Positions 1-14,248 of a DNA stretch of 64,000 bases are shown one piece after another. The notes beneath the pieces were generated by a model. The model did not search any database. It had not been told where the DNA came from and saw only the letters and a list, made by a program, of their open reading frames with translations. Location of the stretch: assembly GCF_036924745.1 (NCBI RefSeq), contig NZ_JAZHSD010000001.1, positions 868,001 through 932,000 on the forward strand. The letters run 5' to 3'. This DNA comes from Bradyrhizobium sp. AZCC 1693. GTDB taxonomy: Bacteria; Pseudomonadota; Alphaproteobacteria; Rhizobiales; Xanthobacteraceae. A program made the position numbers and the translations under genes. Each line of letters begins with the position of its first letter. Position 1 is the stretch's first letter.

Positions 1-34
1 GCGTGGAAAACCCGCTGCGGCAGAGTAGCCTGCG

Positions 35-12174: not shown

Positions 12175-13200
12175 TCACGCCATCGCCCGCTGTGGCAGCA
12201 ATTCCGCGATCTGGATCGCGTTGAGCGCCGCGCCCTTGAGGAGCTGATCGGCCGACACGAACATCGAGATCGAGTGGCCGCTAGCATCGCTGAGATCCTT
12301 GCGGATACGGCCGACGAGGACGTCGTCCTGGCCTGACGCATCGATCGGCATCGGGAAGTAGTTCTTCGCTCGGTCGTCGACGATTCTGACGCCCGGTGCC
12401 TTCGACAGGATGGCGCGGACTTCATCCTCGGTGATCGGCCTTTCGCATTCGAACGTGATCGCCTCACTATGCGCGCGCAGTACCGGCACGCGGACGCAGG
12501 TGACGCCGATCGCGATCTTTTCGTCCTCGAAGATCTTCCGCGTCTCCTTGATGACCTTGGTCTCTTCGTCGTTGTAGCCGGTCTCGGGATCAACAGCCGT
12601 GTTGTGGCTGAACAGGTTGAAGGCGTAGGGGTGCTGAATCACCTTGGGTTCGAACGGCCGGCCGTCGAGATAGGCGCGGGTCGATTCCACCAGCTCTTGC
12701 ATCACGGCGGCGCCACCGCCGCTCGCCGCTTGATAGGTCGAGAGGATGACGCGCTTGATGCGGTTGGCCTTGTGGATCGGCCACAGCGGCACCAGCGCCG
12801 TGATCGCCGAGCAGTTCGGGACGGCGATGATGCCCTTGTGCTCGCGGATGCGGCCCGCGTTGATCTCGGGGATCACCAGCGGCACGTTCGGGTCCATGCG
12901 GAAGGCCGAGGAATTGTCGATCACGACTGCACCGGCCTTGACGGCCGCGGGCGAGAATTTTCGCGAGGTGCCGCTACCTGCCGAGAACAGCGCGATGTCG
13001 ACGCCTTCGAACGACCTTTCGGTGAGCTCCTCGATCACGATCCTCTCACCGCGGAAGTCGATGGTCTTTCCCGCCGACCGGGCGCTGGCCAGCGCCTTGA
13101 GCTTGCGGACGGGAAAGGCGCGCCTGTCCATGGTGGCGATGAATTCGGCGCCGACAGCGCCGGTTACGCCGGCAATGGCTACAACGGGTTCGTGGCTCAC
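12175..13200 (-). CDS. asd: Aspartate-semialdehyde dehydrogenase
   Basis: Asd reduces aspartyl phosphate to aspartate semialdehyde with NADPH, the branch step to lysine/diaminopimelate, threonine and methionine. The protein (341 residues from the GTG) has the NADP loop AIAGVTGAVG, the SAGSGTSRKF segment, the catalytic cysteine in VPNCSAI (Cys130) and the YQAASGGG loop. The GTG at 13200 was chosen because AGAGGA lies eight bases upstream; an in-frame TTG at 13239 lies on the U tract of a terminator. That terminator, a tiny ORF and a promoter precede the gene and look like an attenuator. Confidence 0.95.
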   Translation of the reverse strand: MSHEPVVAIAGVTGAVGAEFIATMDRRAFPVRKLKALASARSAGKTIDFRGERIVIEELTERSFEGVDIALFSAGSGTSRKFSPAAVKAGAVVIDNSSAFRMDPNVPLVIPEINAGRIREHKGIIAVPNCSAITALVPLWPIHKANRIKRVILSTYQAASGGGAAVMQELVESTRAYLDGRPFEPKVIQHPYAFNLFSHNTAVDPETGYNDEETKVIKETRKIFEDEKIAIGVTCVRVPVLRAHSEAITFECERPITEDEVRAILSKAPGVRIVDDRAKNYFPMPIDASGQDDVLVGRIRKDLSDASGHSISMFVSADQLLKGAALNAIQIAELLPQRAMA

Positions 13201-13238
13201 GGGTCTATCCTCTGTTTGAGCATCATGGCTTACGGGCA

Positions 13239-13272
13239 ATAAAAAAGCCCCGGTCCTTTTCAGGCGGGGCTT
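13239..13272 (-). terminator. Rho-independent terminator in the asd leader
   Basis: On the minus strand AAGCCCCG (13272-13265) pairs with CGGGGCTT (13252-13245) and is followed by a run of six U. It ends about 40 bases before the asd start and begins 25 bases after the stop of a 23-codon ORF. The 5' arm can instead pair with a CCGGGGGCTCGG stretch inside that ORF (13326-13315), giving an antiterminator. Confidence 0.75.
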
Positions 13273-13297
13273 CGGTTCAGATAATGCGATCGTTCGA

Positions 13298-13369
13298 CTA
13301 CGCGCGCACGGCTCCCGAGCCCCCGGAGGGTGCTTTGGTTTTCGCGGTCGCTTTGGTCGAAGTCGTCAT
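13298..13369 (-). CDS. Candidate leader peptide of asd
   Basis: This is a 23-codon ORF reading MTTSTKATAKTKAPSGGSG and four more residues. Five of its first 11 residues are threonine and three of the first 12 are lysine, the end products of the pathway that asd feeds. The predicted start of transcription is within about two bases of its ATG, so translation would be leaderless, as described for trpL of Sinorhizobium meliloti. A terminator follows, then asd. It could alternatively be a tiny protein gene with its own function. Confidence 0.5.
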   Translation of the reverse strand: MTTSTKATAKTKAPSGGSGAVRA

Positions 13370-13377
13370 GGCGCGGA

Positions 13378-13406
13378 CTTATGCGGCAGCTTGGCGCCGC
13401 CGTCAA
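13378..13406 (-). promoter_or_regulatory. Predicted promoter of the asd leader
   Basis: TTGACG (13406-13401), a 17-base spacer and CATAAG (13383-13378) read on the minus strand. The ATG of the leader ORF follows eight bases after the -10, so transcripts would have almost no 5' untranslated region. Confidence 0.55.
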
Positions 13407-13446: not shown

Positions 13447-14052
13447 TCATCGCCGACCTGCGGCGCCAGGAGGCTCGAGGATCACCTCCTTCAGGTCGCT
13501 GCCACTCATGACGACGATCGCGAAATTCAGCCGGCCGCGTTCGCGGATCAGGCCGCCGCTGATTGCCTTGCCGGCCGCCGCCTGCTCGGCCACGCGAATG
13601 GCATCCGCCAGGCGGTGCCGGATCGTTTTGAGTGCAACGAGGTTGCTGCGATCCTCGGCATCGAGCTCCTTCAGGGGCAGGGCGGCTTCGCCGCCGACGA
13701 TCTTGCCAGTCGTGGCGTCGATGGCGTGTTGCCGGATGCGGTCGTGGTGAACGGTCTTTACCCGGTAGACCGGTGAACCCGACGCGCCGTCGAAGCTGAC
13801 ATCGGCAGTCATCGCACCGGCATGCAGGGACTCGGCAATCGCCATCGCCTGGCTGAGCGAGATCGCCGAGCCACGGAAGAGCTCAAGCTCGCGGTTGACC
13901 GCCTGCTGGTCGGACGCAGCGCTCTCCTCGGCCTCATTGCGGAGCGAGGCTGGCTCGCCGGTCGACGACGCGACAGCATAGAGGGGGGCAGGGAGGATGA
14001 CCGCCACCAGGGCGGCTGCAAGCAATTGTCTCCAACATCTCGGGGCATGCAT
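13447..14052 (-). CDS. Secreted PepSY-domain protein
   Basis: The 201-residue protein starts with a signal peptide (MHAPRCWRQLLAAALVAVIL, cleavage near LYA-V). The region from about residue 55 to 125 (ISLSQAMAIAESLHAG through DATTGKIVGGE) matches a PepSY domain, a fold that often inhibits proteases or senses envelope signals. The ATG at 14052 has GGAG nine bases upstream. Its promoter holds an operator also found ahead of the patatin lipoprotein, so the two envelope proteins are likely controlled together by the TetR regulator encoded between them. Confidence 0.7.
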   Translation of the reverse strand: MHAPRCWRQLLAAALVAVILPAPLYAVASSTGEPASLRNEAEESAASDQQAVNRELELFRGSAISLSQAMAIAESLHAGAMTADVSFDGASGSPVYRVKTVHHDRIRQHAIDATTGKIVGGEAALPLKELDAEDRSNLVALKTIRHRLADAIRVAEQAAAGKAISGGLIRERGRLNFAIVVMSGSDLKEVILEPPGAAGRR

Positions 14053-14248
14053 GCTTGCAGTCTCCATCCTTGAGCCTGTCTCTGCCGGCGAAGGGGGCCG
14101 GATCGTCTCGAAAGAAAGCGCGGCCGACCCTTTGGAGGCATACGGATCGGCCGCGGAACGTCGCAAACGTACCGTCGTTTGCGGCGATCGAAGCGGCGCG
14201 CGCCCCGCTGGGACTGGTGAAAAGCAGGACCGCACTTCGCTTGTAACA

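Follow-up and report, generated by a model that had tools for sequence, protein, structure and literature searches.

It is natural to ask what the short stretch in front of the asd gene of Bradyrhizobium sp. AZCC 1693 is for: Does it tune this gene to the supply of amino acids and, if so, of which ones? The enzyme encoded by asd provides the precursor that Lys and Thr have in common, and the routes to Lys, Thr, Met, Ile, and diaminopimelate, a precursor of the cell wall, part at this step. A sequence-only reading of the window (the whole stretch of DNA analysed, 64,000 nucleotides) had proposed a leaderless leader-peptide attenuator upstream of this gene. Its choice of target held in part. The 341 aa protein matched TIGR01296 asd_B with 397.1 bits in a profile search, above the cut-off of 324.2, it has the Semialdhyde_dh and Semialdhyde_dhC domains, and it is related to the solved structure 2yv3 (E 3.2e-95). 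The gene is, however, a second, paralogous copy rather than the canonical one, with 45% identity to the canonical asd of the same genome, and is therefore called asd2 here. The asd matches of other genera were mostly of the canonical-asd grade, not of the asd2 grade. The features of the locus, in window coordinates, are as follows.

13447-14235: PepSY-domain gene (PF03413), on the other flank of the leader region from asd2
13401..13406, minus strand: -35 box TTGACG, 17 nt before the -10 box
13378..13383, minus strand: -10 box CATAAG, 8 nt before the ATG at 13369; the predicted leaderless start lies at or next to 13369
13298..13369, minus strand: leader peptide ORF, 23 codons plus TAG, MTTSTKATAKTKAPSGGSGAVRA
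13334..13342, minus strand: predicted control codons 10-12, AAA ACC AAA (Lys-Thr-Lys), chosen by conservation and by the stall window 9-12 of a folding model
13328..13334, minus strand: segment 1, AGCACCC, overlapping the end of the control codons and predicted to form protector hairpin 1:2 with segment 2
13315..13326, minus strand: segment 2, CCGGGGGCUCGG, candidate antiterminator strand within the ORF, with a predicted duplex with segment 3
13265..13275, minus strand: segment 3, CCGAAGCCCCG, which takes in the terminator 5' arm GCCCCG (13270-13265)
13241..13252, minus strand: segment 4, the terminator 3' arm CGGGGC (13252-13247) plus the U-tract U6 (13246-13241)
13208..13213, minus strand: AGAGGA, likely ribosome site of asd2
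12175..13200, minus strand: asd2, aspartate-semialdehyde dehydrogenase, GTG start at 13200

The promoter with its 17 nt spacer, the 23-codon ORF, the GC hairpin with U6, and the GTG of asd had all been named by the sequence-only reading, and we found each of them on the minus strand; its count of five Thr and three Lys in the first 12 codons of the ORF is also correct. The order beyond the terminator needs a small correction, since the 40 nt from the U-tract to the GTG and the AGAGGA are present, but AGAGGA lies inside those 40 nt and not beyond them. The gap between the stop codon and the hairpin is 25 or 27 nt, depending on how the flanking A-U pairs are counted, and the terminator loop has 12 nt. 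By eye, no Shine-Dalgarno site was seen for the leader ORF. A simple consensus scan listed neither the leader promoter nor the terminator, because its rule needs a -10 box ending in T, where a G stands here, and because it allows a loop of 8 nt. Searched against Rfam, the window gave no match at the gathering score, and the leader locus (L099) gave none at E up to 0.5.

How could such an arrangement control asd2? We consider it probable, at roughly 0.84, that the asd2 leader is a ribosome-mediated transcription attenuator answering to the supply of Lys and Thr, as its sequence and the folding model suggest. Transcription would begin at or next to the AUG, so that the leaderless ORF would be translated while being made. 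With ample charged tRNA-Lys and tRNA-Thr the ribosome would pass codon 12, whereupon segment 2 would be masked or captured in the protector hairpin (1:2), and transcription would end ahead of asd2 at hairpin 3:4 and its U6. Under a shortage of Lys or Thr the ribosome would pause at codons 10-12 (Lys-Thr-Lys here) and cover segment 1; segment 2 could then pair with segment 3, no terminator would form, and asd2 would be transcribed.

The first evidence comes from relatives. We examined the upstream regions of 80 asd2 loci, 79 from the genus and one (L012) from another genus; the first search pattern caught 77 of them, and a wider one picked up the remaining L012, L061, and L074. None of the 80 lacks the promoter-like boxes, the terminator, or the leader ORF between them. 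Among the 77 loci caught by the pattern, the spacer between the -35 and -10 boxes was 17 nt in 75, and in the other two, counted as 33 and 34 nt, an upstream TTGA was probably picked instead. The distance from the -10 box to the ATG stayed within 7-10 nt in 77/77 (8 nt in 71; 7, 9, and 10 nt in two loci each), and this constancy fits a leaderless start, with transcription predicted to begin at or next to 13369. The ORF has 23 codons plus stop in 78/80 loci, whereas the gap from stop to terminator varies. The two others are L012, with 22 codons, and L007 (G153:C1), where a 1-nt deletion, which could be genuine or a sequencing error in the G run, lets the frame run on to the asd2 start region. 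The terminator columns GCCCCG and GGGGC were invariant in 40 aligned sequences. A second, overlapping set of 80 loci gave 78 leaders by the pattern (one with 24 codons, one with 22) and two by the wider pattern.

This same start region has been interpreted at the DNA level. According to the accessible text of PMC10888616, blr4687, one of two asd genes of B. diazoefficiens, was 9.1-fold up in a phaR mutant, and from 1 uM upwards purified PhaR shifted a fragment with its promoter; a 'long PhaR box' was proposed at -209, CCGCCATGTTCACGACCACCAA, which corresponds to the first letters of the leader ORF, and the authors report having confirmed that the long sequence is bound. The conserved stretch could then be a PhaR operator, with a terminator that merely trims transcription and a small ORF that is incidental. 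We hold this to be very unlikely, because the supposed operator stretch differs in DNA among clades of the genus (ATGACGACTTCGACCAA, ATGTTCACGACCACCAA, ATGATCACCGCGACCAA) while Thr/Lys coding is kept, and because an operator leaves the length of the ORF, the way its codons pair with the terminator arm, and the U-tract unexplained. Moreover, in the accessible part of the same paper, the long box was derived from two promoters, and changing its invariant G and C in blr4358 left binding unaffected. Repression by PhaR can be compatible with attenuation at the same promoter, and the element offers a second reading of the stretch proposed as a PhaR operator. In the text accessible to us, the authors of PMC10888616 also stated that they knew of no functional asd study in rhizobia.

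If the ORF is a sensor of Lys and Thr, then we can ask: How strictly are its codons kept? Codons were counted in 78 aligned leaders, with L007 and L012 left out. Thr was found at position 5 in 76, Lys at 6 in 77, Thr at 8 in 75, and Thr at 11 in all 78, as was the stop. Position 10 was Lys in 75 and Thr in 3, and position 12 Lys in 46 and Thr in 32, the exchange there being between AAA and ACC/ACT, a two-base change. The expectation of the sequence-only reading that Thr/Lys codons would be kept in relatives was thus borne out, codons 10-12 being Lys or Thr in 78/78 leaders; in the second locus set the rule was broken by L295 (Ile at 12) and L300 (Ala at 11). The third positions of the Thr codons drift (T8 is ACC in 52, ACG in 22, and ACT in 1).

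The two residues need not both be signals. Possibly the attenuator answers to overall translation or to a single amino acid, the other residue serving to keep the 5' end A/C-rich and unstructured. Thr at position 11 in every leader would suit a single amino acid, and the leader Lys codons, AAA 198 vs AAG 15, reverse the usage of six window genes (AAA 12 vs AAG 57), which fits selection for A-rich unstructured RNA or for the less common codon. Nevertheless, Lys and Thr interchange at positions 10 and 12, and the clusters found before canonical asd elsewhere contain both residues, although the count used there itself demands at least three Thr and at least one Lys. We rate an answer to one amino acid or to translation in general as quite unlikely, and favour attenuation by both Lys and Thr.

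Does the element belong to asd2, or is it an RNA gene of its own? Of 265 genus genomes, 253 contain the element by a covariance model of leader plus terminator (R1) at a threshold of E 1e-8 or better. When 248 genomes sampled from the family were searched under stricter filters, R1 matches as strong as 1e-25 occurred only in 17 listed genus members plus G075. The terminated transcript of about 129 nt might be chiefly a small RNA acting in trans, with control of asd2 secondary; the accessible text of PMC7298713 assigns trans roles to the leaderless attenuator RNA rnTrpL and the peptide peTrpL of S. meliloti, and two features outside the predicted pairing are strictly kept, codon 22 as CGC in 78/78 leaders and Val at 21 in 75/78. 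Against this, the element goes with asd2 across the 265 genomes: when the two genome lists were compared, the 12 genomes without the element were also without an asd2-grade match, and the sole exception was G333, which has the element and no asd match at all. A primary role as a small RNA therefore seems extremely improbable to us. As a separate observation, the last leader codons of the window, GUG CGC GCG UAG (13298-13309), are strictly kept though they lie outside the predicted pairing, and a GCGCGC-UAG-like ending is also seen in many leaders before dapA and thrS.

For attenuation of asd2 by Lys and Thr, the pairing between ORF and terminator is the next point. Over the 80 loci, the protector hairpin 1:2 was predicted at -1.8 to -10.4 kcal/mol and the antiterminator duplex 2:3 at -13.1 to -26.7 kcal/mol; the terminator was predicted at about -11 to -18 kcal/mol, its weakest value being that of L006, where the script took a second GCCCC. 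Because any two GC-rich strands pair somewhat, a recoding control was used, in which codons 15-20 were synonymously recoded with the codon usage of the window, with 500 recodings for each of 33 distinct cases. The 2:3 duplex averaged -19.0 vs -13.6 for synonymous recodings, and all 33 cases lay below the random mean. In 18/33 cases the true duplex was matched by at most 5% of recodings and in 25/33 by at most 10%; eight cases stayed above 10%, the worst being L083 with 27.6%. In the window itself, the pairing of 13326-13315 with the terminator 5' arm, suggested by the sequence-only reading, was recovered at -18.8 kcal/mol, with 4.8% of synonymous randomisations equally low. A swap test over 36 combinations, in which relatedness was ignored and one pair (L006) was mis-parsed, gave a mean of -18.7 for true 2:3 pairs vs -18.1 for swapped ones, and 4 of 5000 permutations were as low.

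Covarying stems in relatives, another expectation of that reading, appeared only weakly in a fixed register: one pair changed on both sides, three slid controls reached 3 each, and the score was equalled in 40 of 500 shuffles. In the same register 82% of cells pair, vs 33 to 56% when slid. RNAalifold found a both-sided change in 1 of 19 pairs. The pairing register differs from clade to clade, and joint changes of segments 2 and 3 can be followed by clade: GGGCUUCGG with CCGAAGCCC in L063, GGGGCCUUCGG with CCGAAGCGCCCC in L004, and GGGGCUG with CAGCCCC in L033. Since covariation and RNAalifold give little, the case for the antiterminator rests on the recoding control, on these clade-wise joint changes, and on the stall model.

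In the stall model, an equilibrium folding in which the RNA ahead of P site +15 is treated as free, the ribosome was placed at successive codons of 78 leaders. With codon 9 in the A site, the probability of the terminator fell below 0.5 in 55 leaders; the figures for codons 10, 11, and 12 were 74, 66, and 51, and those for codon 13 and every later one 0 or 1 of 78. With no ribosome the terminator prevailed (below 0.5 in 6/78). As modelled, the control codons stand where a stalled ribosome would switch the fold. Moving the footprint edge by 3 nt shifts the stall window by one codon, either way. Codon 9, which is inside the window of the model, is Thr in just 44/78 leaders. The answer at codons 4-8 was divided, with 31 to 39 of 78 below 0.5, and the conserved T5, K6, and T8 are therefore unexplained by the model. 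Overall, the attenuator proposed by the sequence-only reading is backed by the conserved codons, the constant spacing from promoter to ATG, the terminator in 80/80 loci, and a pairing better than that of recoded sequences.

Are other genes of the pathway preceded by similar leaders? R1 also gave weaker matches, at E 7e-8 to 2e-5 among other genera and at 0.008 in this genome itself, and these pointed to a member of the dapA family. The gene scores 207.3 bits with TIGR00674 (cut-off 206.15) and is one of 11 DHDPS-family genes in the genome; a search of 50 genus genomes found it in 47. A leader also precedes a short thrS paralogue of this genome, whose 403 aa match the thrS model from position 172 on. 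The two leaders of this genome are these.

G000:C1:3770217-3770347 (L161 418-548), plus strand: dapA leader with Lys-Lys pair, terminator, and predicted antiterminator; other loci L163-L192
G000:C1:152264-152396 (L162 465-597), plus strand: leader of the thrS paralogue, MNKLRSAALTTTATAYGGSPAGCAR (LTTTATA), Thr-rich, with terminator; other loci L193-L202

In all 30 loci examined, the dapA leader is 22-29 codons long and has a Lys-Lys pair ahead of the hairpin; in this genome it reads MITRSCAALSSKKGPLLGTRDRRAR. Stalling in the model with the A site one codon before the pair, at the first Lys, or at the second Lys freed the antiterminator in 11, 17, and 16 of 30 loci, respectively, and the other positions tested did so in 0 or 1 of 30. 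The leader looks like a lysine attenuator, and for about half of the loci the model points to Lys-Lys. In eight loci outside the genus, the leader before a dapA-like ORF (named by eye) has a single Lys, not two.

The thrS paralogue was found in 10 of 50 genomes, in two of them as two pieces, and a Thr-rich leader precedes it in 10/10 loci. We do not put this leader forward as an attenuator, as the model kept the terminator at every stall position in 9/9 leaders; the tenth, L195, was without a terminator by script. For the thrS locus Rfam gave two weak matches, Thr_leader with E 0.053 on the opposite strand and ctRNA_p42d with E 0.4; both were below the gathering score and were set aside as chance. 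Nothing in Rfam matched the leaders of asd2 and dapA, the canonical asd locus, or eight order-level loci. Second-tier R1 matches such as L101, L137, L150, L155, and L158 were likewise set aside, as by eye they look like gene ends plus terminators. A different leader family with terminator, of the MIKSSRTFNRNHMTRFGWAVGGVAR type, was seen in L140, L142, L143, L147, L149, L152, and others, and the next ORF in L144, L147, L149, L151, and L152 carries the motif LSDRELxDIGL. We take this motif to be that of DUF1127 proteins. By eye, L138 (G494:C169) has a leader-like ORF, MIVAATTRKRKATSKTPAAGAWGMGAC, before an apparent aminotransferase.

Canonical asd was surveyed in 40 regions (L227-L266), one or two per family, picked from 146 genomes with a match. 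An ORF was counted if ten codons held 7 or more Lys or Thr, the minimum being 3 Thr and 1 Lys. The 40 genomes belong to other families of the order; 25 of them have such a cluster ORF before canonical asd, and the other 15 fall below the mark. As controls, the reverse strand gave 0/40, and 12 rounds of dinucleotide shuffling gave none. The cluster ORFs end some 70-150 nt before asd and are followed by repeated CUCUCCC/GGGAGAG-like pieces. Since these pieces stand there and no U-tract terminator was seen after the ORFs in the 40-genome sample, the output of the canonical-asd leader is probably different. Within the own family, 1 of 18 asd loci from other genera (L013-L030) has an ORF with at least 5 Lys/Thr per ten codons, namely L015. 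In this genome, no Thr/Lys leader was seen by eye in the sequence upstream of canonical asd, and no ORF reaching that density was found upstream of either aspartate kinase, of another dapA, or of hom. In these scans the leaders do not add up to a pathway-wide scheme. The second aspartate kinase, a 400-codon frame at G000:C1:3409534-3410709 on the minus strand, begins directly behind the stop codon of a neighbouring frame and has no leader.

These observations allow a wider proposal, which we put at a little better than even chance: aspartate-family control in Hyphomicrobiales may run largely through leader peptides, with an old Thr/Lys leader of non-terminator output before canonical asd in many families, replaced in Bradyrhizobium by a terminator-type leader on a second asd plus a Lys-Lys attenuator of dapA. 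If this is true, Bradyrhizobium would sense lysine via tRNA charging and not via a lysine riboswitch. The asd2 element offers a ready test of Lys/Thr sensing in nitrogen-fixing bacteria.

How does the asd2 leader compare with what is known? The asd gene of E. coli is reportedly without a typical attenuation signal, that of Streptococcus mutans is said to have attenuator-like sequences upstream, and Vitreschak and colleagues reportedly made a survey in 2004, which PMC10117765 cites. Our literature search, with most subscription papers outside its reach, found neither a Thr/Lys attenuator with a terminator for asd nor a Lys-codon attenuator for dapA, and the term asd is absent from the main texts of PMC4842269, PMC5082802, PMC2965389, and PMC1273637. 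The sequence-only reading knew of no such leader described for asd, but PMC10117765, in its accessible part, holds a hint of a Thr/Lys leader close to this step. This is SEP5 of Sinorhizobium meliloti, a suggested leader peptide whose small ORF has six Thr and three Lys codons and lies ahead of a gene called aspartate dehydrogenase there.

The classical case is the thrL attenuator of enterobacteria, which has Thr and Ile codons and its own ribosome site and controls thrABC. Like thrL (RF00506), the asd2 leader has control codons for products of the aspartate family, alternative hairpins that overlap, and an intrinsic terminator; unlike it, the asd2 leader has Lys/Thr codons and asd as its target, and it gave no RF00506 match. 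With trpL/rnTrpL of Sinorhizobium, as described in the accessible parts of PMC7298713 and PMC10117765, it shares the bacterial order and a leaderless ORF, here predicted. That leader differs in its Trp codons, its target trpE, and its length of 14-19 aa, and its 5' end and translation have been shown, whereas the asd2 leader has been read from sequence. SEP5 resembles the asd2 leader as a small Thr/Lys-rich ORF before a gene near the same step. In the accessible description (PMC10117765), however, it comes without terminator or antiterminator and is conserved only in Sinorhizobium; we infer that it precedes canonical asd, and if so, it would belong to the order-wide set and not to the asd2 type. 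We regard the genus-wide leader-peptide attenuator of a second asd as real, and it most likely answers to Lys and Thr. Its mechanism is already known in kind; its target and its pair of codons are new.
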